A DNA stretch of 15,787 bases from contig JALHTN010000327.1 of assembly GCA_022865865.1 (NCBI GenBank), positions 1-15,787 on the forward strand. The letters are read 5' to 3'. Shown here piece by piece: positions 1 to 15,000 of this stretch. Each line of letters begins with the position of its first letter. Position 1 is the first letter of the stretch. The notes beneath the pieces are model-generated. The model did no database searches. It saw nothing but the letters and a program-made list of their open reading frames with translations, and was not told where the DNA came from. The position numbers were made by a program, and so were the translations under genes. The DNA is from Anaerolineales bacterium (GTDB lineage Bacteria; Chloroflexota; Anaerolineae; Anaerolineales; UBA4823).

Positions 1-1074
1 CAATCCAGGACCGCTTTTTGCTTCCAATAACTCCTGGAGAGAGACTTCGCCCCAATGGATCTCCAGAAAGCCGTTTTCACGCATCCACTTGTCGTCAAAG
101 ACTTTTGATAAATAGCGCGAGCCTGAATCAGGCAGCAGCACTACAACCAAACGCTCCGCATCAAGATCTTGGGCATAACGCACTGCAGCTGCTACCGCCG
201 ATCCTGATGAGCCTCCGCAAAAAATACCCTCTTCTCTGACCAGGCGTCTTGTCCACAGGAAAGACTCTTTATCGGTTACCCGCACGACCTGGTCAATAAC
301 GGATAGATCCAGTGAGGAGGGTAGAAAATCCTCCCCGATCCCTTCTACTTTGTAGGTGGTTGCCTGTACATCATCAGGAACCTGGCCTGCTTGCCAGGTT
401 TCCAATAGGATTGAGCCGGTTGGATCGACTCCAACCATGCGAATATTGGGATTTTGTTCCTTGAGGTACTTTCCAACGCCGCTGATCGTGCCTCCAGTGC
501 CCATACCAACGACAACATCGGTCACCTTTCCTTGTGTTTGCTCCCAAATTTCCGGACCGGTGGTCAGGTAATGACTACCCGGGTTTTGCGGGTTATGGTA
601 CTGGTTAGCGAGGATGGCATTGGGTGTCTCGGCGACGATCCGATTGGCGACGCTGTAGTATGAACGTGGATCATCTGGTGCAACAGCAGTTGGCGTGATT
701 AAAACCTTTGCTCCGAAGGCGCGCAGCAGCTGGATTTTCTCCTGGCTCATCTTGTCTGGCATCACGAAAATCGTTTTGTAGCCTTTAATCGCACAGGTGA
801 TCGCCAACCCAACTCCAGTATTGCCTGAGGTTGATTCAACTACGGTACCACCCGGTTTCAAACGCCCGCTGTTTTCTGCTTCGGCAATCATGGCTGTGCC
901 GATGCGATCCTTGACCGAGCCGCCCGGATTCAAGAACTCAATTTTGGCATAGATTGGGCAGGAGACGCTGCGCCCAACCCGGTTGAGACGCACCAGTGGA
1001 GTGTTTCCGATCACCTGCAGAATATTGTCGTAAACTCTCAGTTCAGTGGAACTGGTTAACTTGGAAGCTGGCAT
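1..1074 (-). CDS. cbs: Cystathionine beta-synthase-type PLP enzyme (partial, 3' end off window)
   Basis: A pyridoxal-phosphate fold II enzyme that joins serine (or an activated serine) to homocysteine or sulfide in cytoplasmic sulfur amino acid metabolism. The 358 visible codons are open to the left edge, so the C-terminus is missing. Visible motifs are the PLP lysine in NPGGSVKDRIG (Lys55), the phosphate-contacting STSGNTG loop, and the glycine loop GMGTGGTISG. The segment VEGIGEDFLPSSLDLSVID and a later LPDSGSRYLSKVFDDKWM resemble cystathionine beta-synthase more than plain cysteine synthase CysK, and residues after about 335 look like a linker to C-terminal CBS domains, which would lie off window. 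The ATG has a GGAG ribosome-binding site about 9 bases upstream. It lies behind degV on the same strand, but a terminator separates them. O-acetylserine sulfhydrylase activity cannot be excluded. Confidence 0.9.
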   Translation of the reverse strand, partial: MPASKLTSSTELRVYDNILQVIGNTPLVRLNRVGRSVSCPIYAKIEFLNPGGSVKDRIGTAMIAEAENSGRLKPGGTVVESTSGNTGVGLAITCAIKGYKTIFVMPDKMSQEKIQLLRAFGAKVLITPTAVAPDDPRSYYSVANRIVAETPNAILANQYHNPQNPGSHYLTTGPEIWEQTQGKVTDVVVGMGTGGTISGVGKYLKEQNPNIRMVGVDPTGSILLETWQAGQVPDDVQATTYKVEGIGEDFLPSSLDLSVIDQVVRVTDKESFLWTRRLVREEGIFCGGSSGSAVAAAVRYAQDLDAERLVVVLLPDSGSRYLSKVFDDKWMRENGFLEIHWGEVSLQELLEAKSGPGL

Positions 1075-1104
1075 AGACTGGTTCTCCGTAATAATTGGAC
1101 TAAA

Positions 1105-1110
1105 ATAGTA
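1105..1110 (-). promoter_or_regulatory. Possible -10 box of the cystathionine beta-synthase gene
   Basis: On the minus strand this reads TACTAT, 31 bases before the ATG. No convincing -35 hexamer sits 16-18 bases upstream. A perfect 10-bp palindrome, AATCCGGATT (1129-1138), lies just upstream where an activator or repressor could bind. A promoter is expected here because a terminator isolates this gene from degV, but the assignment is weak. Confidence 0.3.
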
Positions 1111-1144
1111 TTAATTAAGCCTACCACGAATCCGGATTGGGGTC

Positions 1145-1173
1145 AAAAAAAACCTCCCACTGCGCGTGGGAGG
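1145..1173 (-). terminator. Rho-independent terminator of degV
   Basis: Read on the minus strand, an 8-bp perfect stem (CCTCCCAC / GTGGGAGG, 1153-1160 and 1166-1173) with a 5-base loop is followed directly by eight T residues (1145-1152). It begins about 25 bases after the degV stop codon and separates degV from the downstream cystathionine beta-synthase gene. Confidence 0.93.
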
Positions 1174-1197
1174 CTATTCATGTGTTTTGGAAGGTTT

Positions 1198-2046
1198 CTA
1201 CATACCGGCTAAGTAGGCCAATCCTACGACTCCCGGTCCTGCATGAGTGCCAACCACGGGACTGACTTCCGCGTAAATTTTCTCATCCGGATTGAGATGA
1301 GCACAGCCGACATCCAGCAGCCAGCGGGCATCTTCTTCGGCTTTGGCGTGCAGAGTCGCCAGGTGCAGCGGCTTGCGCCCATCAACGCGTTCCTCGACCA
1401 ATCTGATCAACTGGGCTAGCGATTTCTTGCGGGTTCTTACCCGTTCCACAGATTCAATGCCCCCATCACGGATCTCAAGGATGGGTTTGAAATTTAAAGC
1501 TGTACCCAGGAATTTTGCTCCTCCACCGATGCGGCCGCCGCGGTGCAGGTACTCCAGTGTATCGACCGCGAACACTACACCGGTCATGGGTTTCGCCTTT
1601 TCAGCTACTTCCCTGCACTCCGCCAACGAGGCTCCTTCTTTTGCAGCCCGGGCAGCCATCAGTGCCTGCCAGCCCAAACCCATGGCAACCGATCCAGAAT
1701 TGAATACTTCGATGGCTGCATCTGGGTGCATATCCTTGATCTGGTTGGCTGAATCAACCGTCCCGGATAATTTCGGGGATACCAACACCGCCAGGATATC
1801 ATACCCATCATCCAATAATTGACCAAATAGCTTCTGAAATGAAGCTGGCGTAACCTGGGAAGTAGTTGGGTGGATGGGATCGGTTTCCAAACGCTCGTAA
1901 AACTCACTAGGCTGAATATCGATCCTATCTTCCAGTGCCTCTTCGCCGAAAATCAGCACCTGGGGTGCCTCCCAGAGGGGGTATTGGTCAAGAAGTTCTG
2001 TTGGTATCCCAGCAGTGCTGTCTGTCACAACCGCGACTTTTGCCAT
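1198..2046 (-). CDS. DegV family fatty-acid-binding protein
   Basis: A 282-residue protein of normal DegV length. DegV/FakB proteins bind a single fatty acid and, in Firmicutes, present it to the kinase FakA so that the acyl phosphate can enter phospholipid synthesis. Family motifs run in order: N-terminal VVTDSTAGIP, TTSQVTPA near residue 60, VSPKLSGTVDSA, FNSGSVAMGLGWQ, VDTLEYLHRGGRIGG, LNFKPILEIRDGGI, and C-terminal VGTHAGPGVVG. The ATG has AGGAGA about 9 bases upstream. No FakA-like kinase is in the window, so the specific partner is unknown. It is monocistronic here, ended by the terminator at 1145-1173, and diverges from ffh across a 283-base spacer. Confidence 0.95.
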   Translation of the reverse strand: MAKVAVVTDSTAGIPTELLDQYPLWEAPQVLIFGEEALEDRIDIQPSEFYERLETDPIHPTTSQVTPASFQKLFGQLLDDGYDILAVLVSPKLSGTVDSANQIKDMHPDAAIEVFNSGSVAMGLGWQALMAARAAKEGASLAECREVAEKAKPMTGVVFAVDTLEYLHRGGRIGGGAKFLGTALNFKPILEIRDGGIESVERVRTRKKSLAQLIRLVEERVDGRKPLHLATLHAKAEEDARWLLDVGCAHLNPDEKIYAEVSPVVGTHAGPGVVGLAYLAGM

Positions 2047-2329
2047 AACGAGTGTCTCCTTTTACATATTATTAGGAAGAATGATGAAATAATGGTAGAT
2101 AAAGGCATATCTCCATAAGATACATAACCCCCCCAACTGTGATAAGTTTCTCGATGGGCGCGCGTTAGTTCCTTCTGCTGCAGGTCCCGTGTATATCTAC
2201 CTCGGTAAATGGCCGGATATGTGAGATTTATCAGTAAGTTTACCTGGAATGCCCTACCTCTTGACCATTCACAACTCCCACAGTACAATCCAATGCTATA
2301 CAAATTTAGAAATATAAGGTTTATGGATT
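2047..2329. other. Divergent degV-ffh intergenic spacer
   Basis: A 283-base stretch without a convincing gene. The right end contains the ffh promoter (2261-2289). The left 200 bases must hold the degV promoter, but I see no good -35/-10 pair. A run of seven C residues lies at 2128-2134, and GGTAAA (2204-2209) with TTTACC (2239-2244) could pair across a long loop. I looked for the conserved SRP RNA core (AGGTCCGGAAGGAAGCAGC type) on both strands and did not find it. Short frames crossing the spacer have no family features. Confidence 0.6.
2261..2289 (+). promoter_or_regulatory. Sigma-70-type promoter of ffh
   Basis: TTGACC (2261-2266), a 17-base spacer and TACAAT (2284-2289). Each hexamer differs from consensus at one position and the spacing is ideal. 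Transcription would start near 2296, giving a leader of about 35 bases before the ffh GTG. It probably drives ffh and the following ribosomal genes. Confidence 0.8.
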
Positions 2330-3652
2330 GTGTTTGAGAATCTCACCGACAGATTAAACGGTGTCTTTAAGCAGCTCAGCCGCCGTGGCAAGCTATCAGA
2401 AAATGATGTTGACGCAGCGATGCGAGAAGTGCGCTTGGCCTTGCTGGAAGCCGATGTGCATTACAGTGTTGTCAAGGACTTCGTCGCCCGCGTACGTGAG
2501 CGATCTGTAGGACAAGAAGTTTCCAAGGCGCTTAATCCGGCACAACAAGTGATTAAGATCGTCAATGAAGAGCTGGTAGCAACCCTTGGTGAACCAGAAC
2601 GCCTGAACTTGAGCGGACCTAAACCCAGGGTGATCATGCTGGTTGGTCTTCAGGGTTCAGGTAAAACCACTGCAGCTGGAAAGTTAGCTCGTATGCTGCG
2701 TTCTCAGGGGGAGCGGGTGATGTTAGTTGCCGCCGACCCGTACCGACCTGCTGCGGTTACCCAACTGGAAACCTTGGGTGCAAGCTTGAATGTACCCGTC
2801 TACTCCGAGCCCGGGGTTGCTCCACCAGAATTAGCAGCTCATGCTTTCCAGAAAGGTGAGAATGGTGGGTACACTGTCCTGATTCTCGATACAGCTGGCC
2901 GTTCTCAATTAGACGATCAATTGATGGATGAATTGCAAGCCATCACCGACCAGGTGGAACCTGTGGAAGTGCTTCTGGTCGTAGACTCGATGATCGGTCA
3001 GGAAGCGGTAAATATCGCCAATGGCTTCCGAGACTCAGTAAATTTGACGGGTTTAGTACTTACCAAGATCGATGGTGATGCGCGCGGGGGTGCTGCCATC
3101 TCGATTCGTTCTGTTACTGGGGTTCCGATCAAGTTTCTTAGTACGGGTGAAGGGTTGGATGCGATCGAGGTATTCGATCCGGGACGGCTTTCTTCCCGAA
3201 TTTTAGGAATGGGGGATGTCCTGGGCTTGATCGAACGAGCTGAGGCGAATTTCGACGAACAAACTGCCCGCACACAAGCGGAGCGCTTGATGAGCGGCGA
3301 GTTTACCCTTGAAGATTTCGCTGAACAGCTCAAACAAGTGCGCAAAATGGGCCCAATCAGCCAATTAATGGGCATGTTACCTGGCGGAATGGGGCAGATC
3401 GCCAATCAAGTCGACCCCCATGATGCTGAGAAACAGCTCAAAAAAACTGAGGCGATTATCAGTTCTATGACTCAAGGAGAACGTCGAAATCCGAAAATCT
3501 TGAACGCCAGCCGTCGCAGGCGAATTGCCCGCGGTTCTGGGACCGAAGTTCAAGATGTCAATCGTCTGCTAAAGCAATTCAAGCAAGCCCAGAGAATGTT
3601 TAAGAGCTTGAATAAAACTGGAATGCGAGGCATGCCGCGTATTTTCGGTTAG
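2330..3652 (+). CDS. ffh: Signal recognition particle protein Ffh (SRP54)
   Basis: The 440-residue GTPase subunit of the signal recognition particle. It binds signal peptides of nascent membrane and secreted proteins and docks the ribosome at FtsY. The N domain spans about residues 1-95. The G domain carries GLQGSGKTT (106-114), DPYRPAAVTQL (136-146), DTAGR (187-191) and TKIDGDARGG (245-254), followed by RILGMGDV. The methionine-rich M domain (about 300-440) includes KMGPISQLMGMLPG and the RNA-binding stretch around SRRRRIARGSG. Length and all motifs are normal. The start is GTG at 2330 with a modest TAAGGT ribosome-binding site about 10 bases upstream. An ATG at 2323 is out of frame and leads only to a four-codon frame. 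ffh is the first gene of the plus-strand block; the 4.5S/SRP RNA gene was not found in the window. Confidence 0.98.
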   Translation: MFENLTDRLNGVFKQLSRRGKLSENDVDAAMREVRLALLEADVHYSVVKDFVARVRERSVGQEVSKALNPAQQVIKIVNEELVATLGEPERLNLSGPKPRVIMLVGLQGSGKTTAAGKLARMLRSQGERVMLVAADPYRPAAVTQLETLGASLNVPVYSEPGVAPPELAAHAFQKGENGGYTVLILDTAGRSQLDDQLMDELQAITDQVEPVEVLLVVDSMIGQEAVNIANGFRDSVNLTGLVLTKIDGDARGGAAISIRSVTGVPIKFLSTGEGLDAIEVFDPGRLSSRILGMGDVLGLIERAEANFDEQTARTQAERLMSGEFTLEDFAEQLKQVRKMGPISQLMGMLPGGMGQIANQVDPHDAEKQLKKTEAIISSMTQGERRNPKILNASRRRRIARGSGTEVQDVNRLLKQFKQAQRMFKSLNKTGMRGMPRIFG

Positions 3653-3714
3653 AATACCCTATTGAAGGCACCTATGGCTTACGAGCTGTAGTAGATTGAT
3701 GCCCGCTGAGCTGC

Positions 3715-3771
3715 ACCGGAGGACTTGCGTGCCCTTCCACGCCACCTCTGCCCCGGTCGTTTGCCCGGCAG
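3715..3771 (+). promoter_or_regulatory. Candidate structured RNA leader upstream of rpsP
   Basis: The gap between ffh and rpsP is more G+C rich than its surroundings and folds by eye into nested stems. GCGTG/CACGC (3727-3731 with 3738-3742, loop CCCTTC) lies inside GAGG/CCTC (3719-3722 with 3745-3748), inside ACCG/CGGT (3715-3718 with 3754-3757, with a five-base bulge). An alternative pairing, CTGCC/GGCAG (3748-3752 with 3767-3771), competes with the outer stems. It ends about 20 bases before the rpsP ribosome-binding site. This could be an S16 autoregulatory leader or simply a processing hairpin. Covariation was not tested. Confidence 0.35.
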
Positions 3772-3807
3772 AAAAACTGTTATGAAAATCGAAGGAGATT
3801 GAAATTT

Positions 3808-4644
3808 ATGGTACGTATTCGTTTACGCCGTGTTGGCGGAAAAAAGCAGCCCAGTTACCGGATTGTTGCCGCTGACAAAGAAAGTCCTCGTGATGGTCGT
3901 TTTCTAGAAAACCTGGGGTACTATAACCCTCGCACGGAACCGACTACTCTGAGAATGAAAGAAGATCGAATTTATGACTGGATGAGCAAAGGTGCTCAAC
4001 CCAGTGATTCGGTCAAGCAATTGTTCCATTCCGCTGGACTGCTGGATCGGTTTGCTCGTTTCAAGGAAGGCGAATCGCTCGAAGTGTTAATAGAAGAAGC
4101 TGAGGCAGCTGAACAGGTACGCTCCGGAAGTGTGAAGACCACTGGAGCTACACCGACTAAGAAATCCAAACCCGGTGCAAAAGAAGCAGCTGAGACCGAA
4201 GTGGAAGCTGAAGCAGTAGTAGAAACAGTAGTAGAAGCGGAAGTGGAAGCTGAAGCTGAAGCGGAAGTAGAAGCTGAGGCAGAAGCGGAAGCAGAAGCTG
4301 AGGCAGAAGCGGAAGCAGAAGCTGAAGTGGAAACAGAAGTAGAAGCTGAAGTGGAAGCGGATGTAGAAGCAGAAGCGGAAGTGGAAACAGAAGTAGAAGC
4401 TGAAGTGGAAGCGGAAGTAGAAGCAGAAGCGGAAGTGGAAACAGAAGTAGAAGCTGAAGTGGAAGCGGATGTAGAAGCTGAAGTGGAAGTGGAAGCAGAA
4501 GCGGAAGTGGAAGCAGAAGCGGAAGTGGAAACAGAAGTAGAAGCAGAAGCTGAAGCAGATGTGGAAGTAGAAGCAGAAGCGGAAGTGGAAGCTGAAACTG
4601 AGGATGAACCTGCTGCTGAATCTGAACCAGAAGATAAAGATTAA
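3808..4644 (+). CDS. rpsP: 30S ribosomal protein bS16 with a very long acidic Glu-Ala/Val repeat tail
   Basis: Small-subunit ribosomal protein bS16, needed for 30S assembly. Residues 1-90 form a normal S16 core (MVRIRLRRVGGKKQPSYRIV, later DGRFLENLGYYNPR and a DWMSKGAQPSDSV segment). A basic linker follows (about 105-125, TPTKKSKPGAK), then residues 127-270 are almost strictly Glu alternating with Ala or Val, with occasional Thr or Asp, ending in a Pro/Glu/Asp-rich terminus. Bacterial S16 is usually 80-100 residues; this is 278. I start at ATG 3808 rather than an in-frame TTG at 3799, because AAGGAG (3792-3797) is ten bases before the ATG and the family begins MV(R/K)IRL. The repeat stays in frame throughout. 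khpA follows after 56 bases. Confidence 0.97.
   Translation: MVRIRLRRVGGKKQPSYRIVAADKESPRDGRFLENLGYYNPRTEPTTLRMKEDRIYDWMSKGAQPSDSVKQLFHSAGLLDRFARFKEGESLEVLIEEAEAAEQVRSGSVKTTGATPTKKSKPGAKEAAETEVEAEAVVETVVEAEVEAEAEAEVEAEAEAEAEAEAEAEAEAEVETEVEAEVEADVEAEAEVETEVEAEVEAEVEAEAEVETEVEAEVEADVEAEVEVEAEAEVEAEAEVETEVEAEAEADVEVEAEAEVEAETEDEPAAESEPEDKD
4270..4575 (+). repeat. Nested tandem repeats encoding the S16 acidic tail
   Basis: Two perfect copies of a 24-bp unit (4270-4293, 4294-4317) are followed by three tandem copies of a 54-bp unit beginning GAAGTGGAAACAGAAG (4324-4377, 4378-4431, 4432-4485, the third diverging at its end). Two perfect copies of an 18-bp unit follow (4492-4509, 4510-4527), overlapping a decayed fourth 54-bp copy starting at 4522. 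All units are multiples of six bases, so gain or loss keeps the Glu-X dipeptide frame. The coding strand is purine-rich. The pattern suggests growth by slippage or unequal recombination. Confidence 0.93.
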
Positions 4645-4673
4645 AGTGTCCGGCAGAAATTGGAATTAATCGG

Positions 4674-4694
4674 CCTCAACCGGTTAACCGGAGG
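4674..4694 (+). promoter_or_regulatory. Palindrome overlapping the khpA ribosome-binding site
   Basis: CCGGTTAACCGG (4680-4691) is a perfect 12-base palindrome that runs into the GGAGG ribosome-binding site (4690-4694), six bases before the khpA GTG. In RNA it could form a CCGG/CCGG stem with a TTAA loop. An upstream CCTC (4674-4677) could instead pair with GAGG (4691-4694). Either form would mask the ribosome-binding site, so translation of khpA may depend on ribosomes arriving from rpsP. This is inference from base pairing only. Confidence 0.4.
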
Positions 4695-4700
4695 TATGTT

Positions 4701-4937
4701 GTGCAAGATTTAATCGAATATATTGCTCTTTCTTTGGTTAATGATCCACTTCAAGTACGGGTGAGCCAGGAGCAACGTGGTCCCAATGTTGACATTCGGT
4801 TGCAGGTAGCCAAGGAAGACATGGGTCGTGTGATTGGGAAACACGGGCGGGTAGCAAATTCAATGCGCAACTTGCTGCGTGTCTCAGCGGCTCGAGAAGG
4901 TAAACGCGCCACTTTGGATATCATGGAACCAGAATGA
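4701..4937 (+). CDS. khpA: KH-domain RNA-binding protein KhpA
   Basis: A 78-residue single-KH-domain protein of the KhpA (YlqC) family, which binds RNA, commonly with its partner KhpB, and affects cell division and elongation in Firmicutes. The GxxG loop is GKHG within GRVIGKHGRVANSMRNLL (about residues 43-60), and the N-terminal LIEYIALSLV..P..V.V matches the family. The start is GTG with GGAGG six bases upstream. It lies between rpsP and rimM, its usual position in many bacteria, and its TGA stop overlaps the rimM ATG (ATGA), implying translational coupling. No KhpB gene is visible here. Confidence 0.95.
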   Translation: MQDLIEYIALSLVNDPLQVRVSQEQRGPNVDIRLQVAKEDMGRVIGKHGRVANSMRNLLRVSAAREGKRATLDIMEPE

Positions 4938-5506
4938 CATCCAAGTCTGCACGAATGCACGACGATAATCATTCAGGCTCGTCATCCCCCGGCGAGCCTG
5001 AATTCTTGGTGGTTGGTAAATTGGGGAGGCCGCATGGTATGCATGGTGAAATTGTGCTGGATGTATACACTGATTTTCCCGAGCGACTGAAGCCAGGCGT
5101 GAAGGTCTATCTCGGTCCGCAGTTTCAACCCCTGCAGATCACCAGGCGCCGACCACACTCGCGCGGCATGCTGTTGTACTTTGATGGTTATCAAACCAGG
5201 GAACAGGTTGCCGTACTCCGAAACTTGCTTGTGCATGTCCTTACCGTGGATCGACCGCAATTACCGGAAGGGGAATTCTACCACCACCAATTACTCGGAC
5301 TCGAGGTGATTGATGAGAATGACGCAAGATTAGGTTGGGTCACTGAAATCCTCGAGACTGGTGCAAACGAGGTCTATATCGTAAAGGATAGTGATGGGTC
5401 CGAGCTCCTGATTCCAGCTATTGAATCAGTGATCCTGGACATCGATTTAGCGAGCAATCGAATCCAAGTACATCTGCTTCCCGGCCTGCTCCAGGATAAA
5501 AACTGA
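4934..5506 (+). CDS. rimM: Ribosome maturation factor RimM
   Basis: A 190-residue 30S maturation factor that binds ribosomal protein S19 and assists folding of the 16S rRNA 3' domain. The N-terminal RimM barrel contains FLVVGKLGRPHGMHGEI (about residues 24-40). The C-terminal PRC-barrel-like domain begins near YHHQLLGLEVID and continues through GANEVYIVKD and LLIPAIESVI. The first 20 or so residues (Ser/Asp/Gly-rich) precede the conserved fold; the ATG at 4934 is chosen because of the ATGA overlap with khpA, though an in-frame ATG at 4955 is also possible. The trmD and rplS genes that usually follow rimM are absent, and the next gene has its own promoter 10 bases downstream. Confidence 0.96.
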   Translation: MTSKSARMHDDNHSGSSSPGEPEFLVVGKLGRPHGMHGEIVLDVYTDFPERLKPGVKVYLGPQFQPLQITRRRPHSRGMLLYFDGYQTREQVAVLRNLLVHVLTVDRPQLPEGEFYHHQLLGLEVIDENDARLGWVTEILETGANEVYIVKDSDGSELLIPAIESVILDIDLASNRIQVHLLPGLLQDKN

Positions 5507-5516
5507 TCGACTTTGC

Positions 5517-5546
5517 TTGACAGCGGAGAAAGTCCTGTGGTATTCT
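5517..5546 (+). promoter_or_regulatory. Strong sigma-70-type promoter of dprA
   Basis: A perfect -35 TTGACA (5517-5522), an 18-base spacer and -10 TATTCT (5541-5546), with an extended -10 TG at 5538-5539. The predicted start near 5553 gives about 50 bases of leader. The leader holds a small hairpin GAAGC/GCTTC (5576-5590) directly before the dprA ribosome-binding site. The promoter begins 10 bases after the rimM stop, so dprA-manC-topA can be transcribed independently of the ribosomal genes. Confidence 0.8.
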
Positions 5547-5603
5547 ATTCGCCGTGTTTCAACCATTAAATGAAGGAAGCTGCTTGCTTCTAGGAGCATT
5601 CAG

Positions 5604-6731
5604 GTGCGTGATCCCAAGCAATATTGGGTAGCATTTTCTCTGGTAAAAGGAATTGGCCCTGTCCGCTTCCAGGCTTTATTAAATTATTTCGGTGATCCAC
5701 AAGTAGCCTGGGGTGCTCCTATCGAGGCTTTAAAAGCAGCCGGTCTCAGCGATAAGATCATTGAGAATCTCGTCGTAATGCGCTCCTCGATTGACCTGGA
5801 TAAGGTCTGGGAACAGATCGAAGCGAAAGGAATTTCGGTCATCATCCAAACGGATGAAACCTATCCGAAGCGGCTCGAAGAGATTGAACAACCACCACCT
5901 GTTTTGTATACACAGGGCGACCTAATCGCTGATGATGAATGGTCCGTAGCCATTGTTGGGACCAGACGGGTAACAGCATACGGAAGGCAGGTTGCAGAGG
6001 ATATCGCAGGTAGTTTGGCTAGAAATGGTCTTACCATAATCAGTGGGTTAGCGCGAGGTGTGGATTCGATCGCCCATCAGGCAGCGCTTGATGCTGGAGG
6101 AAGAACGATTGCAGTATTGGGTAGTGGTATCGACCGGATATACCCGCCAGAAAACAAGCTCCTGGCCGACAAGATTAAAGCTAACGGGGCGCTAATCAGC
6201 GAATACTCCCCGGGGACACCTCCCGAAGCCTCTAACTTCCCTGTGCGTAATCGTTTGATATCTGGTTTATCTCTAGCTGTCGTGGTTGTTGAAGCAGGGC
6301 AGACAAGCGGTGCTTTGATCACAGCAGCTTTTGCTGCAGATCAGGGTCGAGAGGTTTTTGCGGTTCCAGGCAACATTACCTCTCCTGGAAGTGTGGGCAC
6401 CAATCGCTTGATCCAAAACGGAGCCTATCCCTTACTGAGTGCTGAACAGGTATTGGAAACCCTGGAGCTGAGTATGGTTGCAGAACACCGGGCTGCCCGG
6501 GTAACTTTACCCAGTGATGCGGTTGAAGCTCAACTCTTCGAGACCCTTGGAGGCGAGCCATTACACATTGATGAAATCACAAACCGGACAGAGATTCCGG
6601 TTGAGAAAGTAACTGCCACCCTGGCGTTGATGGAGCTCAAGGGTATGGTCCGCCAGGTGGGGGGCATGCAGTACATCGCATTACGAGAGGTACGAGAAGC
6701 ATATAAAGATGTTGATGAAAACACAAATTGA
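5604..6731 (+). CDS. dprA: DNA-processing protein DprA (Smf)
   Basis: A 375-residue single-stranded-DNA-binding protein that loads RecA on incoming DNA during natural transformation and is kept in many bacteria not known to be competent. An N-terminal helix-hairpin-helix-like segment contains LVKGIGPVRFQALLNYFGD (about 13-31). The Rossmann-like core includes VAIVGTRRVTAYGRQVAE (115-132), IISGLARGVDSIAHQAAL (145-162), GSGIDRIYPPEN (173-184), NFPVRNRLISGLS (211-223) and VEAGQTSGALITA (229-241). A C-terminal winged-helix domain (about 308-365) contains HIDEITNRTEIPVEKV. The start is GTG with AGGAG about 7 bases upstream. The following manC gene begins 14 bases after its stop. Confidence 0.97.
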   Translation: MRDPKQYWVAFSLVKGIGPVRFQALLNYFGDPQVAWGAPIEALKAAGLSDKIIENLVVMRSSIDLDKVWEQIEAKGISVIIQTDETYPKRLEEIEQPPPVLYTQGDLIADDEWSVAIVGTRRVTAYGRQVAEDIAGSLARNGLTIISGLARGVDSIAHQAALDAGGRTIAVLGSGIDRIYPPENKLLADKIKANGALISEYSPGTPPEASNFPVRNRLISGLSLAVVVVEAGQTSGALITAAFAADQGREVFAVPGNITSPGSVGTNRLIQNGAYPLLSAEQVLETLELSMVAEHRAARVTLPSDAVEAQLFETLGGEPLHIDEITNRTEIPVEKVTATLALMELKGMVRQVGGMQYIALREVREAYKDVDENTN

Positions 6732-6745
6732 TACTTGGAGATTGC

Positions 6746-7834
6746 ATGCAAGATAATTATTATGCAGTGATCATGGCTGGTGGTGGTGGAACACGTCTTT
6801 GGCCCCTCTCCCGGGCGACAAAACCAAAGCAGATGCTGCAATTGATTGATGATCAAAGCTTGTTTCAGATCGCTGTGCGGAGGTTGGCCGGGGAATTTCC
6901 TGCTGAACGAATTTTGATCGTCACAATCGCAGACCAAGCTGATGAATTACGTGAGCAAGCTCCAGAGATTCCAGCCGAGAATTTCATCCTTGAGCCAATG
7001 CCACGCGGTACCGCTTCTGTGATCGGTTTGGCGGGCATTGTTTTACAGGAGCGGGATCCAGATGCAGTGATGGCGGTATTAACCGCGGATCATTTCATTG
7101 GTAATGAAGATAAATTTCTCCGCTTGCTGCGGGCAGCATACCAGGTAGCCCAAGACGATTATCTGGTTACTCTGGGGATTGAACCGACGGCGCCGGCAAC
7201 TGGATATGGCTATATTCACCAAGGAGAACTGATCGGTCAAACCGACCAGCTGAATGTCTATCAAGTACTTAAATTTAAGGAAAAACCGGATCTAGCTCAA
7301 GCAAAAACGATGCTGGAATCGGGTGACCATGCTTGGAACTCCGGTATGTTTGTTTGGCAGGTCAACCAAATCATGGACGAATTTGCTCGCCAGATGCCGG
7401 ACCTCTCAGCCAGGTTAGGAAACATCTCCAGAGCCAGGAATACCCCGGAATCTGAGATGGTCATCAACCAGGAGTGGCCCGCAATCAAACCAGAGACCAT
7501 TGATTATGGGATCATGGAAGGAGCCCGGAATGTAGCAGTTATTCCAGCAGAAGGCCTGCGCTGGAACGACGTTGGCAGCTGGGATTCGCTCTTTGATGTA
7601 TTTGAGCCCGATAAAGATGGAAATATTGTGATCGGAGGCCAGCATATTCTCAGTGAAACCCAGGATTCTCTGGTTTACCAAAACCAGGACCAGCGCCTGA
7701 TCGTTACCATAGGTGTTGAGAATCTTGTTGTTGTTGATACTGGAGATGTACTGCTGGTTTGCCATAAAGATGCTACCCAGAAGGTTCGCCAAGTTGTCAG
7801 CCAGCTGCGTGCAGATGGAGAGAAATACGTTTAA
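6746..7834 (+). CDS. manC: Mannose-1-phosphate guanylyltransferase (GDP-mannose pyrophosphorylase)
   Basis: Makes GDP-mannose from mannose-1-phosphate and GTP, supplying glycan, glycolipid or compatible-solute synthesis. The 362-residue protein is a single nucleotidyltransferase domain without the C-terminal isomerase fused in some ManC proteins. Visible motifs are AGGGGTRLWPLSR (11-23) followed by KPKQM (26-30), LTADHF (112-117), GYGYI (153-157), FKEKPD (177-182), NSGMFVW (198-204) and, near residue 270, WNDVGSWDSLF. I start at ATG 6746, five bases after GGAG, rather than the TTG at 6728 that overlaps the dprA stop. It is 15 bases ahead of topA, so it is probably cotranscribed with dprA and topA. 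This is an uncommon place for it. Confidence 0.95.
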   Translation: MQDNYYAVIMAGGGGTRLWPLSRATKPKQMLQLIDDQSLFQIAVRRLAGEFPAERILIVTIADQADELREQAPEIPAENFILEPMPRGTASVIGLAGIVLQERDPDAVMAVLTADHFIGNEDKFLRLLRAAYQVAQDDYLVTLGIEPTAPATGYGYIHQGELIGQTDQLNVYQVLKFKEKPDLAQAKTMLESGDHAWNSGMFVWQVNQIMDEFARQMPDLSARLGNISRARNTPESEMVINQEWPAIKPETIDYGIMEGARNVAVIPAEGLRWNDVGSWDSLFDVFEPDKDGNIVIGGQHILSETQDSLVYQNQDQRLIVTIGVENLVVVDTGDVLLVCHKDATQKVRQVVSQLRADGEKYV

Positions 7835-7849
7835 AGTGAGGTATTTATT

Positions 7850-10168
7850 GTGGAAGCTTATTGTGTAAAGTGCAAAACAAAACGGGAAATGCTGGACCCG
7901 AAACCAGAATATACAGCAAATGCAACCCCTGGTACTCGGGGTACTTGTCCGGTTTGCGGGACGACCCTGTTCCGCATGGGCAAGACTGAAGCTCATGAAG
8001 GAATTCCCAAACCTGAGAAGGTAAAGAAGACTCGCAAGAAAAAAAGCAAAGGTAAATTGGTGATTGTTGAATCCCCAGCCAAAGCGCGCACTGTTGGGAA
8101 TTTTCTCGGTAAAGGGTATACCGTGAAGGCTTCAGTTGGGCATGTACGTGATTTATTACGTTCGCAATTATCGGTGGATGTCGAAAACGGATTTTCCCCG
8201 AAGTATAGAGTACCGAATGATAAGCGCCCGGTGGTAAAGGAGCTCAAGAAGCTCGCCCAGGATGCTGCCGAGGTATATTTGGCGACAGACCCCGATCGCG
8301 AAGGTGAAGCTATCGCCTGGCATCTCGTCGAATCGGTTGAAATAGACCCCAAGATCACCCAGAGGGTGATTTTCCATGAGATCACACAACCAGCCATTGC
8401 CGAGGCATTTGAACAGCCAAGGGAAATCAACATGGATCTGGTAAATGCACAACAAGCTCGACGAATTCTCGACCGGTTGGTTGGCTATAACTTAAGCCCA
8501 TTATTGTGGCGAAAGGTGCGCAGCCGCTTATCTGCTGGGCGAGTACAGTCCGTCGCTCTGCGATTAATCGTCGAACGAGAACGCGAAATTGAAGACTTCA
8601 ACCCTGTAGAATATTGGTCTATTAAAGCTGAATTTCAACCAGATGGGACACGGGATTCTTTCATTGCAAAATTGATCCGTATCGATAAAGAGGAAGCAGT
8701 TCTTGGAAACGAAGCGCAAGTTCAGCCAATCCTGGCTGATATGGATAAAACTGATTATAAGATCACAAAGATTAAACGCGGGGAACGCAAACGCAAACCG
8801 CGGCCACCTTTCATCACCAGCACGCTGCAGCAAGAAGCATCTCGCCGGCTCGGATTCAGCGCACGCCGTACAATGGCGCTCGCTCAGCAGCTCTATGAGG
8901 GCATTGATGTCGGGAATGGGGGATTGGTTGGATTGATCACATATATGCGAAGCGATTCCACCAATGTATCATCCATTGCTCAAAATGAAGCTGCCAAATT
9001 TATCGTTTCGGAATATGGTGAGAATTACCTGCCAGCGAAAACCCCGGTTTACAGCAAGAGAGCTCGCGGGGCTCAAGAAGCGCATGAAGCCATTCGACCC
9101 ACATCGGTCTGGCGGCAACCAAAAAAGATCACGAAACATCTTTCCCGCGATCAACTTCGCCTTTACCGCTTGATTTGGCAGCGTTTCGTAGCTTCCCAGA
9201 TGGCCTCCGCAATTTATGATACCTTAGCGGTCGATGTAACTGGTACAAACGAGACTCATGAGTACCTTCTGCGTGCCTCAGGTCAAACGATCCGCTTCCA
9301 GGGTTTCATGATCATTTATGAAGAAAAGCGGGATGAGGAAAAGGAGGCTGCTGCAGGTGAACATGTGCAAATCCCCTCCAGCATTGAAGAAGATCAGCCC
9401 CAGAAACTCCTGCAGCTGATCCCCGAACAGCATTTCACCCAACCACCGCCCCGATACTCTGAGGCTTCATTAGTTCGTACGTTAGAGGAAAATGGTATCG
9501 GGCGGCCATCAACATATGCACCCATTCTTGGGACAATCCAACAGCGGGGATATGTCTATCAAGAGAGCAGGCGCTTATTTCCAACCGAAACAGGAATCCT
9601 GGTGAATGATTTGCTGGTCGAACATTTCCCAGACGTAATTGAAGTTGGTTTCACCGCACGCATGGAATCTGATCTGGACCGGATTGCTTCTGGGGATGAA
9701 CAATGGGCAAACGTAATCGAAAGATTCTACAAACCATTTGAAGAAGATGTCAAGGCTGCTGAAGAAAAAATTCCCGAGATGAAAATGGAGCTGGAACTCA
9801 TCGGGCGCGCCTGTCCGAAATGTGAACATGATCTTGTGATCCGCTGGGGGCGCTATGGTAAATTTATCAGCTGCAGCAATTTCCCAGAGTGCCGCCATAC
9901 AGAGCCCTGGTTGGAGAAGATTGGTGTCACCTGTCCGCTGGATGGTGGTGATGTGGTTGATAGGAAAACTCGTAAAGGGCGTACTTTTTATGGCTGTTCA
10001 AATTATCCCGAATGTGACTTCACATCCTGGAAAAAACCTTTGCCCATACCATGTCCCAATTGCGGTGGTTTGCTAGTTGCAGCCAACAAAAGACATGCCC
10101 AATGTACCCAATGTAAAGAACAATTCTCGCTGGATGAATTATCCTCGGAAGAAGTTCCGACCAATTAA
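7850..10168 (+). CDS. topA: DNA topoisomerase I with N-terminal DUF5679-type zinc ribbon
   Basis: A type IA topoisomerase that relaxes negatively supercoiled DNA. Residues 1-45 form a separate four-cysteine module (YCVKCKTKREM, then GTCPVCGTTLFRMGK; Cys5, Cys8, Cys33, Cys36) matching the small DUF5679 family. A lysine-rich linker (54-68) follows. The Toprim domain begins KLVIVESPAKA (Glu74) and includes DPDREGEAIAWHL (147-159). The catalytic tyrosine is Tyr365 in LITYMRSDST. A GIGRPSTYAPI motif follows, then three C-terminal zinc fingers from Cys655 onward (CPKC...CSNFPEC, CPLDGG...CSNYPEC, CPNC...CTQC). At 772 residues it is within the family range once the extra N-terminal domain is allowed for. 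The start is GTG, with GTGAGG ending 8 bases upstream. Confidence 0.97.
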   Translation: MEAYCVKCKTKREMLDPKPEYTANATPGTRGTCPVCGTTLFRMGKTEAHEGIPKPEKVKKTRKKKSKGKLVIVESPAKARTVGNFLGKGYTVKASVGHVRDLLRSQLSVDVENGFSPKYRVPNDKRPVVKELKKLAQDAAEVYLATDPDREGEAIAWHLVESVEIDPKITQRVIFHEITQPAIAEAFEQPREINMDLVNAQQARRILDRLVGYNLSPLLWRKVRSRLSAGRVQSVALRLIVEREREIEDFNPVEYWSIKAEFQPDGTRDSFIAKLIRIDKEEAVLGNEAQVQPILADMDKTDYKITKIKRGERKRKPRPPFITSTLQQEASRRLGFSARRTMALAQQLYEGIDVGNGGLVGLITYMRSDSTNVSSIAQNEAAKFIVSEYGENYLPAKTPVYSKRARGAQEAHEAIRPTSVWRQPKKITKHLSRDQLRLYRLIWQRFVASQMASAIYDTLAVDVTGTNETHEYLLRASGQTIRFQGFMIIYEEKRDEEKEAAAGEHVQIPSSIEEDQPQKLLQLIPEQHFTQPPPRYSEASLVRTLEENGIGRPSTYAPILGTIQQRGYVYQESRRLFPTETGILVNDLLVEHFPDVIEVGFTARMESDLDRIASGDEQWANVIERFYKPFEEDVKAAEEKIPEMKMELELIGRACPKCEHDLVIRWGRYGKFISCSNFPECRHTEPWLEKIGVTCPLDGGDVVDRKTRKGRTFYGCSNYPECDFTSWKKPLPIPCPNCGGLLVAANKRHAQCTQCKEQFSLDELSSEEVPTN

Positions 10169-10202
10169 TCCTTCCGGCATGAGTCTTGCAACATAAGCGA
10201 TG

Positions 10203-10230
10203 ATAGATTTTCGCACTTTTGTGCTAAAAT
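10203..10230 (+). promoter_or_regulatory. Possible promoter with overlapping dyad
   Basis: An extended -10 box, TGCTAAAAT (10222-10230), lies 44 bases before the next ATG, without a clear -35. It overlaps a near-perfect dyad, TTTT-n-GCAC-TTTT-GTGC-n-AAAA (10208-10229). A repressor bound there would block the promoter. The dyad could instead be a poor terminator for topA, but no T run follows it. Confidence 0.4.
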
Positions 10231-10273
10231 TTGGTTTAGACTGAAATTTTTAGAATTGATCGGAGAGAGGAAA

Positions 10274-11257
10274 ATGGATGACATCCGTGAGCAACTCAAT
10301 AAACCACTTTGGATCGGGATCATCGGCTTTGTTGTTGGTCTGCTGATCGGCCTGGTTGTATTAGGCTGGTGGTTGTGGCCTGTGCAATGGACAGATGCTG
10401 GACCTAGCGATTTACGTATCGAATACCAGGAAACTTACCTGCGTATGGCGATCGATTCCTACACGCTAAACCAAGATGCAGCTAGCGCCCAACAGCGAAT
10501 CGCCGAAGTAGGAGAAAATTCCGCTGAAATCCTGGCGAATATTGCCGCTGACCCCGGTACCCAAAATACTGATTCAATTCAGGCATTTATGCTCTTCTCT
10601 GGGACCGAGCCAGTGGAAGAAGTGGAGGCAACTCCCACGCCGGAGGAGGAGCCCAGCCTGGCACGAAGATGGCTTCCCTGGTTATGTCTGATTACTTTCT
10701 TGCTTGCCGGGGCTTTAGTGATCGTCTTCCTCGTCCGGAACCGTTCCTTCAATTTTAGCCTTCCTTCAACCCGCAAGGAAGCACCCTCGGAGGCGGAGTA
10801 TCCTGAATATACCGCCACCCAAGATGAACCGCCTTTGGCCCAGTTCATGACAACCTACCAGGTTGGAAACGACCTCTTCGATGATTCGTTCAGCATTGAC
10901 TCCCCAGCAGGTGAATTCCTCGGTGAGTGTGGGGTGGGAATCTCGGAGACGATCGGAGTTGGTGAGCCAAAGAAAGTCACTGCGTTCGAGGTCTGGTTAT
11001 TTGATAAGAATGATATTCAGACTGTGACAACAGTCTTGATGAGCAAGAATGCTTTTGAGGATGATGCCACCAGACAGCGCCTATCCGCTAAGGGTGAGCC
11101 AGTCCAGGCTGAACCAAGCCGGGAACTGATCCTTGAGACGGCTACCTTGCGACTCGAAGCACGCGTGGTTGACATGTCATATGGCTCAGGTGGATTACCG
11201 CCGGAAAGCTTCTTTGACCGTGTAACACTTGAGCTGGTTGCCTGGCCAAAAGGATAA
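10274..11257 (+). CDS. Two-pass membrane protein of unknown function
   Basis: I do not recognise a family. The 327-residue protein has a short charged N-terminus, a strongly hydrophobic segment (residues 12-35, rich in Gly/Leu/Val, ending WWLWP), then about 90 residues that look helical and acidic (LRIEYQETYLRMAIDSYTL, then AQQRIAEV). A Pro/Glu/Thr linker (112-127), a second membrane segment (133-154) and a C-terminal domain of about 130 residues (from about 200, FMTTYQVGNDLFDDSF through FEVWLFDK to the end) follow. The most likely topology is N-in, middle region outside, C-terminal domain in the cytoplasm. I start at ATG 10274, behind a GGAGAGAGG ribosome-binding site, rather than TTG 10256. 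It follows topA by 105 bases with a possible own promoter, and its 3' end has a clear terminator. Confidence 0.85.
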   Translation: MDDIREQLNKPLWIGIIGFVVGLLIGLVVLGWWLWPVQWTDAGPSDLRIEYQETYLRMAIDSYTLNQDAASAQQRIAEVGENSAEILANIAADPGTQNTDSIQAFMLFSGTEPVEEVEATPTPEEEPSLARRWLPWLCLITFLLAGALVIVFLVRNRSFNFSLPSTRKEAPSEAEYPEYTATQDEPPLAQFMTTYQVGNDLFDDSFSIDSPAGEFLGECGVGISETIGVGEPKKVTAFEVWLFDKNDIQTVTTVLMSKNAFEDDATRQRLSAKGEPVQAEPSRELILETATLRLEARVVDMSYGSGGLPPESFFDRVTLELVAWPKG

Positions 11258-11278
11258 ACTGTTAATTAATAGATAAAC

Positions 11279-11311
11279 AAAAAGCAGTGAGCATATTCCT
11301 CACTGCTTTTT
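11279..11311. terminator. Bidirectional rho-independent terminator
   Basis: A 13-bp perfect inverted repeat (AAAAAGCAGTGAG at 11279-11291 and CTCACTGCTTTTT at 11299-11311) with a 7-base loop. A T run ends the hairpin on both strands. It lies between the convergent membrane-protein gene (stop at 11257) and greA (stop at 11339), so it ends both transcription units. Confidence 0.95.
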
Positions 11312-11338
11312 GATTTAATAAACCAGGCGATTCAGCGT

Positions 11339-11806
11339 TTATTCGATCTTTAGTATTTTCAAGCTGATTTGACCAGCAGGTGTTTCAGCGATCACCTCTT
11401 CGCCTTCCTTACCACCGAGAAGCGCAGCCCCGAAAGGTGATTGATTCGAAATCCGCCCATTTTTGGGATCCGCTTCCTTGGCGCCCACGATATCGTATGT
11501 TTCGGGTGGGTAATTCGCTTCCTGAATGGTCACTTTTGTACCAACGGTCACGACTCCTCGATCACTCTTCAACTCTTCAATAATCACAGCATTCTTAAGC
11601 ACGAATTCCAATTCCTGAATCTTACCTTCCAAGAATGCCTGATATTCCTTCGCTGCGTGATAATCCGCATTTTCGGATAAATCTCCCATTTGGATGGCAG
11701 AGCGCAAGCGTTTGGCGAGCTCATCCCTTTCGGGACCTTTTAATCGTTCGAGTTCTGCGCGCAAATTTTTTGCGCCTTCATAAGTTAAATACTGTTCGTT
11801 ACCCAT
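11339..11806 (-). CDS. greA: Transcription elongation factor GreA
   Basis: A 155-residue factor that enters the RNA polymerase secondary channel and stimulates cleavage of backtracked transcripts. The N-terminal coiled coil (about 1-75) carries the tip motif MGDLSENADYHAAKEY with the metal-assisting acidic residues Asp42 and Glu45. The C-terminal FKBP-like domain contains VTVGTKVTIQE, TYDIVGAKEADPKNGRIS and SPFGAALLGGKEGEEV. Length is normal. The ATG has TTGGAG about 8 bases upstream and a promoter with a perfect -10 box. It is the last gene of the minus-strand block and ends at the shared terminator. Confidence 0.97.
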   Translation of the reverse strand: MGNEQYLTYEGAKNLRAELERLKGPERDELAKRLRSAIQMGDLSENADYHAAKEYQAFLEGKIQELEFVLKNAVIIEELKSDRGVVTVGTKVTIQEANYPPETYDIVGAKEADPKNGRISNQSPFGAALLGGKEGEEVIAETPAGQISLKILKIE

Positions 11807-11826
11807 AATTTAGCTCCAAGGGGCGT

Positions 11827-11855
11827 ATTATACTGCGAAATATGAATCGTGACCA
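11827..11855 (-). promoter_or_regulatory. Promoter of greA
   Basis: On the minus strand a perfect -10 TATAAT (11827-11832), a 17-base spacer and a -35 TGGTCA (11850-11855, four of six matches). The start would fall about 12-15 bases before the greA ATG, giving a very short leader that just includes the ribosome-binding site. The inverted repeat CCACAA-N6-TTGTGG (11860-11877) lies immediately upstream of the -35. Confidence 0.65.
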
Positions 11856-11859
11856 CATT

Positions 11860-11877
11860 CCACAAAATCAATTGTGG
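11860..11877. repeat. Inverted repeat CCACAA-N6-TTGTGG between dgt and greA
   Basis: Perfect 6-bp arms separated by AATCAA. It lies 19 bases after the dgt stop and just upstream of the greA -35. It may be a weak dgt 3' hairpin (there is no T tract after it) or an operator for greA. Confidence 0.5.
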
Positions 11878-11896
11878 CGGAGTTATGTGCAGTAAA

Positions 11897-13048
11897 TTAA
11901 GGCAAAGATGCTGGATCGAAAAGCTTGTTATGTTCTTGAAGCGCGTAGCGGTCTGTCATACCGGCAATATAATCACATATGGTGCGTTCCAATCCGCGCG
12001 TTTCAATGAAATCTTGCACGTGTTGGGGCAGCATGGAAGATTCTGATTGGTAAGCAGTAAATAAATCGGTGATGATGCGTTCGGCTTTTACCGCCATCCG
12101 CACCACCCGGTGGTGACGGTACATGTTTGCGTACAGGAAATCTTTCAAATGGCGGTTTCGGCGCTGCATATCTTCGCTGAATCCAATCACATTGAAAGCG
12201 AGTTTTTGTAATTGCTCAACAGAGCGGATACTATTCTCCCGTAAACATTGATCTGTGGAGGTAACCAGATCAGTGACTTCCAATCCAATCAGGCGGCGGA
12301 TCAACCTGTGGCGGGACAAATCATCCAATTGACCACCATGCCACCCGACACTTTTTACCAGGATTTCCCACAAAGTTATACCTTCAAGCATCCTGGGTGT
12401 GATCATTCCTGAGCGTAAACCATCATCCAAATCGTGGGCGGTATAGGCCAGCTCATCAGCTGCATTGGCAATCTGAGCTTCTAAATGTCCACGCAGGTCT
12501 GGGTTGTAATCGGATGCATCGGAAATATCGTACTCGGATTCGTGTTTAACGATGCCTTCACGGACTTCCCAGGTAAGGTTTAAACCTGGAAAATCCGGGT
12601 AACGCTCTTCAAGATCGGTGACAATACGCAGGGATTGTCTGTTGTGGTCAAAACCACCAGAATCCTTCATCAAACGGGTCAGAGCTACTTCACCGGAGTG
12701 CCCAAATGGTGAGTGACCTAGATCGTGAGCCAGGCAAATCGCTTCTTCTAAATCCTCGTTTGCCCCCAGGGCTCGAGCAATGGTGCGTCCGATTTGAGCT
12801 ACTTCCAAAGTGTGAGTCAGCCGTGTCCGGTAGTAATCGCCCTCGTGGATGATAAAAACTTGAGTTTTGTACTCCAGACGGCGAAAAGCTGTCGTGTGAA
12901 GAATCCGGTCCCGATCACGTTGAAATGCAGTCCGATAGAGAGGTTCATCCTCCGGGTAGAAGCGGCCTTTTGTGGCCGCGCTGTGCAAGCCGTAAGATGC
13001 TAAATTGTGCTGCTCATTGGCTTCTAATTGTTCGCGTGTGAAGTACAT
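11897..13048 (-). CDS. dgt: dGTPase-family HD hydrolase
   Basis: A 383-residue deoxynucleoside triphosphate triphosphohydrolase-like protein. Members cut dNTPs to the deoxynucleoside and triphosphate, limiting dNTP pools. Metal-binding HD residues are visible: His79 in RTRLTHTLEV, His108-Asp109 in CLAHDLGHSPFGHSGE, and Asp206 in AYTAHDLDDG. Other family marks are RDRDRILHTTAFRRLEYKTQVF (about 44-65) and FDHNRQSLRIV (133-143). The length fits the shorter dGTPase-like group rather than the 505-residue E. coli Dgt, so the preferred dNTP is uncertain. The ribosome-binding site is weak (GAGA, about 5 bases before the ATG). It lies 137 bases after the isopentenyl phosphate kinase stop and probably has its own promoter. 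Confidence 0.94.
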   Translation of the reverse strand: MYFTREQLEANEQHNLASYGLHSAATKGRFYPEDEPLYRTAFQRDRDRILHTTAFRRLEYKTQVFIIHEGDYYRTRLTHTLEVAQIGRTIARALGANEDLEEAICLAHDLGHSPFGHSGEVALTRLMKDSGGFDHNRQSLRIVTDLEERYPDFPGLNLTWEVREGIVKHESEYDISDASDYNPDLRGHLEAQIANAADELAYTAHDLDDGLRSGMITPRMLEGITLWEILVKSVGWHGGQLDDLSRHRLIRRLIGLEVTDLVTSTDQCLRENSIRSVEQLQKLAFNVIGFSEDMQRRNRHLKDFLYANMYRHHRVVRMAVKAERIITDLFTAYQSESSMLPQHVQDFIETRGLERTICDYIAGMTDRYALQEHNKLFDPASLP

Positions 13049-13124
13049 AATATCTCAATTACTGCTGTCCTTACAGAGAGTGGATCAGATAAGCAATGGT
13101 TAATTCAGAGTGATATCGGCTATT

Positions 13125-13153
13125 ATTATAACTTAAGCAGACCTGACAGCATC
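13125..13153 (-). promoter_or_regulatory. Possible promoter of dgt
   Basis: A perfect -10 TATAAT on the minus strand (13125-13130) with a poor -35, GATGCT (13148-13153), 17 bases away. It is 77 bases before the dgt ATG, in the only sizeable gap of this strand's gene cluster. The weak -35 suggests an activator or low basal use. Confidence 0.35.
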
Positions 13154-13164
13154 CCGAAGGGCAT

Positions 13165-13182
13165 TTCAAGCAATCTCTTGAA
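13165..13182. repeat. Inverted repeat TTCAAG-N6-CTTGAA after the kinase gene
   Basis: Perfect 6-bp arms around CAATCT, beginning 3 bases beyond the stop codon of the isopentenyl phosphate kinase gene. It could be a 3' hairpin that stabilises or partly ends the isoprenoid operon transcript. It lacks the T tract of a standard terminator. Confidence 0.5.
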
Positions 13183-13185
13183 CAC

Positions 13186-14010
13186 TTATTCTGCACTTGA
13201 GATTACTGTCCCAGAGCTTGATCCGAGCAGCACATCCAAGACAGTTCCAGGCTGATCCCCTGAGAAGATTAGAATCTCCATATCCGGGATAGCGCGGCTT
13301 AAGGATACACACTGCTCAACTTTGTTTTCCATGCCGCCGGTGACATCAGTTGCCGCTGAGCCGCTCAGCGCGGGTAGCACATCCCTGAAGTTCTGCGGGG
13401 TTATCTTAGGTATGATGGTCGATTGATTTGGAAAATCCTGCCAAACGCCTTGCTCCATCCCCGCTAATAACATCCTGTCGGAATGGAAGTGCCTGGCCAG
13501 ATGGGAGAATAAATCCTCGGTGGACAGGATCGTTCCCCCGAGTGACCGGTCAAAAATCACATCTCCATGGATAACAGGTAATAATCCGGCACGGAGAGCT
13601 GCGTTTAGCGGTCCCAAATCCCAATGCTCAACTTGGCCGTTTCTGGCGATAACAGCAGCTGATGGCGGCAGAGCAATGACGGGTAATGCGACCGCTCTTA
13701 ATGCCTCAACTACCAATCGATTGAGAATGGCCGCATCCCACCATACCTCCGCAAAACCATACCATTGGTCTGGGGTTGTGACACCCTGCCTGGTACCATG
13801 CTTCTTGGCAGACACATGTGCAAATGAACCCGCGCCATGCCCGATCACCAGGCGTAAGGATGGTTGTTGTTCCAGCGCAGAAGCGATTTCTTCTGCCAGG
13901 CGGACCAGAGTTTTTCGCCTCAGCGTACGAGGGCGTTTCTTATCGGTGATCAATGATCCCCCTAATTTCAGCAATACAAGTTGTTTGGGAAATTCCTCGA
14001 GAATCTTCAT
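13186..14010 (-). CDS. ipk: Isopentenyl phosphate kinase
   Basis: An amino-acid-kinase-fold enzyme that phosphorylates isopentenyl phosphate to isopentenyl diphosphate with ATP, the last step of the alternative (archaeal-type) mevalonate pathway. The 274-residue protein shows the nucleotide loop LLKLGGSLITDK (13-24, Lys15), GHGAGSFAH (57-65) with His65 at the place of the family's catalytic histidine, LPVIHGDVIFDRSLGGTILS with the conserved GDV, STEDLF, and DVTGGMENKV near residue 220. The histidine and the Gly-Asp-Val motif separate it from glutamate-5-kinase and UMP kinase. The ATG lies 24 bases after the mevalonate kinase stop, with a modest AAGGCGAG ribosome-binding site. The context with mevalonate kinase strongly supports the call. 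Confidence 0.93.
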   Translation of the reverse strand: MKILEEFPKQLVLLKLGGSLITDKKRPRTLRRKTLVRLAEEIASALEQQPSLRLVIGHGAGSFAHVSAKKHGTRQGVTTPDQWYGFAEVWWDAAILNRLVVEALRAVALPVIALPPSAAVIARNGQVEHWDLGPLNAALRAGLLPVIHGDVIFDRSLGGTILSTEDLFSHLARHFHSDRMLLAGMEQGVWQDFPNQSTIIPKITPQNFRDVLPALSGSAATDVTGGMENKVEQCVSLSRAIPDMEILIFSGDQPGTVLDVLLGSSSGTVISSAE

Positions 14011-14034
14011 TTGCTCGCCTTGAAGTTTGACTGG

Positions 14035-14994: not shown

Positions 14995-15000
14995 GTCAGT

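Follow-up and report, generated by a model that had tools for sequence, protein, structure and literature searches.

A regular acidic repeat tail on ribosomal protein bS16 encoded in an Anaerolineales genome

The window analysed here, a stretch of 15,787 nucleotides from an Anaerolineales bacterium (contig JALHTN010000327.1, positions 1–15,787), carries on its plus strand an rpsP gene whose product, ribosomal protein bS16 (S16), ends in a long acidic tail. The coding sequence occupies 3808–4644; ATG 3808 is most likely its start, with a Shine–Dalgarno-like AAGGAG before it at 3792–3797, and this start gives a protein of 278 amino acids (aa). The product is a genuine bS16, matching PF00886 with 82.6 bits (cut-off 27) and TIGR00002 with 100.2 bits (cut-off 45.3). 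Four segments follow one another on the plus strand. The first is the S16 core (residues 1–84, 3808–4059), supported by the Pfam stretch, by a net charge of +8 and by predicted local distance difference test (pLDDT) block means of 78–98 in an AlphaFold2 (AF2) model. A proximal extension with a predicted helix at residues 91–106 comes next (residues 85–109, 4060–4134; delimited by AF2, alignment and structural alignments), followed by a basic linker evident from its sequence, KTTGATPTKKSKPGAK (residues 110–125, 4135–4182), and by the acidic tail (residues 126–278, 4183–4641), in which a composition count gives 75 Asp or Glu among 153 residues. The net charge of +8 on the core compares with −66 on the whole protein, and the calculated isoelectric point is 9.9 for residues 1–125 and 4.05 for the full chain. 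A preliminary description of this DNA had recognized an S16 with a polyanionic alternating tail behind a short basic linker, and both features hold; its figure of about 140 residues of Glu with Ala or Val captured the alternation, but the tail is about 150 residues long and includes Thr and Asp.

The tail is built from 69 Glu, six Asp, 40 Ala, 27 Val, seven Thr, two Pro, one Ser and one Lys, and 71 of its 75 acidic residues fall in one parity. By parity count, strict alternation of acidic and non-acidic residues continues unbroken for 122 residues (4234–4599), the longest such run among 201 S16 entries, with the second reaching 58; the entries comprise the window, 80 loci and 120 database proteins, some of which duplicate one another. 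Counted from residue 125, the tail holds 67 acid-x-acid triplets; over 5000 random reorderings of the same residues, the triplets averaged 18.6 and never exceeded 32. In the number of acidic residues beyond position 105, the window ranks fourth of the 201 entries with 75, behind 87, 82 and 82. It is the regularity of the window copy that stands out as extreme, and not the length of its tail. A different, very acidic S16 tail was seen at locus L050 (isolate GSL_GB14_7), where 79 of the 101 residues past position 120 are acidic; a saline origin for this isolate is guessed from its name only.

The DNA of the tail is a tandem array over 4198–4596. Within this interval, Tandem Repeats Finder detects repeats with periods of 24, 30 and 54 nt, the 54-nt row stopping at 4579 with 82% matches, and the longest exact repeat measures 53 nt (4363 and 4417), at a lag of 54 nt. 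Of the Glu codons in the tail, 65 are GAA and four are GAG, a GAG share of 0.06 compared with 0.38 in the aligned neighbouring genes. The long exact repeat and the near-uniform use of GAA together indicate that the array in the window was amplified recently. Such a stretch might be suspected of being an assembly or sequencing artefact, and the copy number alone could be off where DNA is repeated; but the copies have diverged, no exact repeat exceeds 53 nt, the reading frame is nowhere interrupted and tails of this kind also occur in the five nearest genomes, so we consider an artefact extremely improbable. The coding strand of the array is 79% purine, which could suggest a role for the repeat at the level of mRNA or DNA and not of protein. 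This explanation also appears very improbable, because relatives retain the acidity with more varied codons. The GAG shares of tail and neighbours are 0.19 and 0.40 in L001, 0.05 and 0.41 in L002, 0.22 and 0.47 in L003, 0.29 and 0.37 in L004, and 0.35 and 0.41 in L005. To judge from these codons, the tails of L004 and L005 look older than the others; their acid fractions are 0.49 and 0.44, despite largely decayed codon homogeneity.

Tail length changes far more quickly than the core does, as is seen where near-identical cores carry tails of differing length. Database S16s with no differences in the first 110 residues (0/110) measure 248, 262 and 280 aa, and a second set with 1–2 differences in 110 measures 168, 188 and 206 aa. 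These series support the chief rival to the explanation favoured below, a near-neutral expansion in which an array encoding Ala, Val and Glu grows and shrinks unhindered at the solvent-exposed C-terminus of S16 and the tail does little. The recent 54-nt amplification with its homogeneous Glu codons agrees with it, as does the absence of a tail from most relatives, and we regard it as a real if doubtful possibility.

The distribution of tails was followed in databases and in related genomes. A protein search with the core, which allowed lengths of roughly 154–491 aa and expectation values up to 1e-3 and listed the best 120, matched 1030 of 1093 candidate proteins in this length range. A genome scan supplied the best 80 of 173 relatives, with titles giving Chloroflexota or Chloroflexi, Anaerolineae-type names or genera of the phylum; being drawn by core similarity, the resulting sample of 81 S16s, window included, leans towards the window. 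The proteins reach at least 150 aa in 20 cases (one of which, L071, is cut by a contig end) and span 103–128 aa in the other 61, with 29 at exactly 114. The S16 of the window is therefore about 2.4 times the local norm of about 114 aa, rather than triple the usual length as first proposed, and about 3.4 times an 82-aa chain (10fz_P), which we take to represent the length of E. coli S16. Several S16s are longer still, namely those of L004 (288 aa), L046 (287 aa), L001 (286 aa) and P0097 (312 aa). The earlier view that a tail so long and regular is unusual thus stands for its regularity, while its length is typical of the clade, given near relatives of 286–288 aa and the 1030 core matches. In a quick tree built on the S16 core, KhpA, RimM and Ffh, the window groups with L001–L005 (approximate likelihood-ratio support, SH-aLRT, of 100); their S16s span 168–288 aa and all six carry tails. 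Short S16s are accordingly a feature of the wider sample and not of the five nearest genomes, which have 168–288 aa. The tailed sequences form four groups on this tree, each wholly tailed, and the branches with good support require just one change of the trait; a single origin with later losses is possible on these branching data.

A class sample contained S16 in 282 of 298 genomes, and 150 match rows among the matches listed included open frames of at least 150 aa in 41 cases, at least 200 aa in 15 and at least 250 aa in four, the longest being 329 aa; these lengths are a rough guide, as an open frame overestimates the size of the protein and the rows, sorted by Pfam score, are not a random draw. 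Thirteen of 30 class-sample loci were read, the 17 in reverse being left out, and the tail counts given here rest on none of them. The 329-aa open frame (G042:C49:28563-28739) is longer than every S16 compared. Long S16 tails are common in the clade of the window, with parallels in other phyla. In a literature search confined to open-licence papers, no title or opening lines pointed to work on an S16 tail that is acidic or made of repeats.

The acidity persists where the length does not. In all 20 tailed loci the tail is net negative, and in 18 of them the 24 residues that begin with the Lys-Thr pair carry a net positive charge. Among the database proteins, 119 of 120 were long enough to be scored, with a net negative tail in 114 and a positive linker in 102, so that a basic segment followed by an acidic one is the rule in the sampled material. 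For a finer comparison, a site was assigned to the acidic phase when acidic residues stood two and four positions from it in either direction and the other phase contained no more than one. Across the window and the five nearest genomes, 174 of 190 such sites were acidic, and other-phase sites held neither Ala nor Val in 72 of 197 cases. In 31 database proteins, acidic-phase sites were acidic in 313 of 406 cases; shuffled tails gave far fewer qualifying sites, about 49 on average, with about 46% of them acidic. These counts point to selection for negative charge, which at this level of sequence comparison is indicated but not proven. They also speak against near-neutral expansion, as acidic-phase positions hold their acidity more than their neighbours hold Ala or Val. 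Further points against it are the Glu retained in L004 and L005 after codon homogeneity had largely decayed, the uniformly negative tails in four groups, mostly behind a positive linker, and the tails kept in the window and all five nearest genomes. A general acidification of the ribosome was also considered and is unsupported for the proteins inspected: those of the S10-spc cluster in G004 and G005 have at most nine acidic residues in any 30 and no such tails, and the S6 proteins of four relatives are free of long C-terminal tails.

The AF2 model, which predicts the helix at residues 91–106, has low confidence in the tail, which is probably disordered. T111 is invariant across 51 tailed or long S16s (alignment A1), and 56 of the 61 short S16s have a Lys/Arg-Thr pair past residue 100, so that short relatives reach the proximal extension too. 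Structural alignment with actinobacterial bS16 spans model residues 1–118, ending at 114–118 with an rmsd of 3.1–4.0, where the range denotes the first and last aligned residue only. On the model, the proximal extension would be comparable to the uS4-binding extension of Cutibacterium and Mycobacterium. The 16S helix 17 was short in five of six further Anaerolineae genomes, the five with a 16S match, in a set separate from the window genome; a 16S match was not found in G001–G005 nor in the L067 genome. We rejected the idea that the acidic tail is tied to helix 17, as the helix is just as short in genomes whose S16 has a tail (those of L016 and L069, both outside the clade of the window) as in genomes whose S16 has none (those of L019, L030 and L042). 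The short helix 17 can therefore bear only on the proximal extension. The earlier expectation that the tail extends into solvent is probably correct, given the low-confidence AF2 tail and the lack of density for the distal end of bS16 in the Cutibacterium acnes ribosome (PMC10085706, PMC6133939). That the tail should be repelled by rRNA is plausible too, although this expectation took into account neither the basic linker nor the proximal extension. A Protein Data Bank (PDB) search with residue 81 onward returned nine matches to proteins of low complexity or repetitive sequence, eL29 among them, and none to S16, and a PDB search with P0004 returned nothing further.

We tentatively favour, with a probability of roughly 0.38, the explanation that the window encodes an ordinary bS16 with a helical extension, a basic linker and a fast-evolving tail that is held acidic and serves as a tethered nucleic-acid mimic. 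The proximal helical extension may dock on uS4 beside the shortened 16S helix 17, as in actinobacterial ribosomes, and the basic linker likely contacts rRNA. The tail was built through in-frame tandem duplication of hexanucleotide-based units, with selection probably keeping it acidic while its length drifts. In free S16, the tail would occupy the basic core and linker in competition with RNA and thereby limit non-specific RNA binding and aggregation; at assembly, it would give way to the cognate 16S helices, and once the 30S subunit is complete it would project from the body as a disordered negative brush. Several observations weigh against this explanation. A tail is missing from 61 of the 81 compared S16s, and with only one forced change on the tree its repeated origin is not established. 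Five of the 119 database tails lack a net negative charge (on inspection by eye, P0002 and P0029 appear truncated or frameshifted, and P0060, P0098 and P0111 are Lys-rich), and acidic-phase sites in 31 database proteins were acidic in only 313 of 406 cases. Duplicated units share their mutation history, so the contrast between phases is no clean dN/dS. Glu third positions lie well under flank usage in the tails of the window, L001, L002 and L003, so that only two of the six tails are old enough to show selection in this way. The authors of the C. acnes work consider translation initiation a likelier role than rRNA assembly for the contact between bS16 and helix 17 (PMC10085706, PMC6133939). 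A bolder variant would make the array of six-base units a heritable length dial, in which brush length differs between close strains and tunes assembly or translation with the core untouched. Six-base units cause no frame shift, so such tuning would be safe in an essential gene; we nevertheless hold this variant to be improbable.

The neighbourhood of rpsP is conserved. The window has ffh (SRP54; 2330–3652) upstream and khpA, encoding a KH domain protein (4701–4937), and rimM (4934–5506) downstream, all identified by profile matches on the plus strand, in the order ffh-rpsP-khpA-rimM and in one direction. Matches to khpA and rimM occur in 80 of the 81 loci and to ffh in 52. The five nearest genomes (G001–G005) each gave one S16 match, a copy count that refers to the genomes of these relatives. 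Elsewhere in the window, DNA topoisomerase I (7850–10168) has an N-terminal DUF5679 domain (residues 4–43) before its Toprim domain, and 10256–11257 encodes a 333-aa protein without a Pfam match, in which hydrophobic stretches with a short Pro/Glu/Thr stretch between them are visible by eye. On the minus strand, genes for an isopentenyl phosphate kinase (NF040647, 172 bits, cut-off 120), a mevalonate kinase (TIGR00549, 263 bits, cut-off 163) and a UbiA-type prenyltransferase (best model NF008977, 231.5 bits, slightly below the cut-off of 234) lie side by side at 13186–15783 and may possibly form part of an archaeal-like isoprenoid route.

What stands out is the extreme regularity of the tail and the variation of its length among proteins that do not differ over residues 1–110. 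As a rule, ribosomal proteins are regarded as almost invariant, and the shift from +8 in the S16 core to −66 in the whole protein, with variable tail length, contrasts with that picture. The length variants with identical first 110 residues form a natural series for testing acidic disordered tails in ribosome assembly, and in the group of the window S16 length should serve neither as a marker nor to flag misassembly.

Among known systems, actinobacterial bS16 has the same core and an extension running in the same direction. The chains measure 147 aa in C. acnes and 156 aa in Mycobacterium smegmatis, with extensions of 65 and 74 residues that dock on uS4 beside the shortened 16S helix 17 (PMC10085706, PMC6133939). 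The short V3/helix 17 is common to C. acnes and to the five Anaerolineae with a 16S found. Unlike these extensions, the window S16 has a 150-residue tandem-repeat polyanion, of which the available C. acnes and M. smegmatis descriptions contain no counterpart. The bS16 of Bacteroidota resembles the window S16 in that the match runs into the tail, over query residues 3–185 for Porphyromonas gingivalis (192 aa) and 2–188 for Flavobacterium johnsoniae (188 aa); these proteins are shorter, and the likeness is one of match range and not of tail letters. NF011094/PRK14521, which we take to be the NCBIfam model of Bacteroidota bS16, matches S16 residues 5–185 with 108 bits, below its cut-off of 209. 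The low-complexity tail of eL29, a large-subunit protein presumably mammalian in the PDB match, is likewise regular and ends a ribosomal protein, but it is rich in Lys, Gln and Ala rather than acidic and shows no kinship.

A negative Glu chain also ends another 30S protein, bS6, when it is glutamylated by RimK. That chain is added enzymatically after translation, whereas the window tail is encoded in the S16 gene and is not of the RimK type. The parallel bears on a third-ranked explanation, in which the tail would lie outside the 30S subunit and bind basic partners or buffer Mg2+ locally, so tuning translation. RimK adds glutamates to the C-terminus of S6 and deletion of rimK lowers several ribosomal proteins (PMC4741518), and in C. 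acnes the extension of bS16 is situated close to where mRNA enters (PMC10085706, PMC6133939); S6 of the four relatives, moreover, is without a long tail of its own. The length lability speaks against a specific binding surface, and such a role seems unlikely. For the favoured explanation the model is Hfq, whose acidic tip has been proposed to be a nucleic-acid mimic (PMC5606850). Hfq is an unrelated protein, and RNA competition is suggested for S16 by analogy only; Hfq shares with the window S16 an acidic, disordered C-terminal tail on a basic RNA-binding core, and it is from Hfq that the mechanism proposed here for S16 is borrowed.
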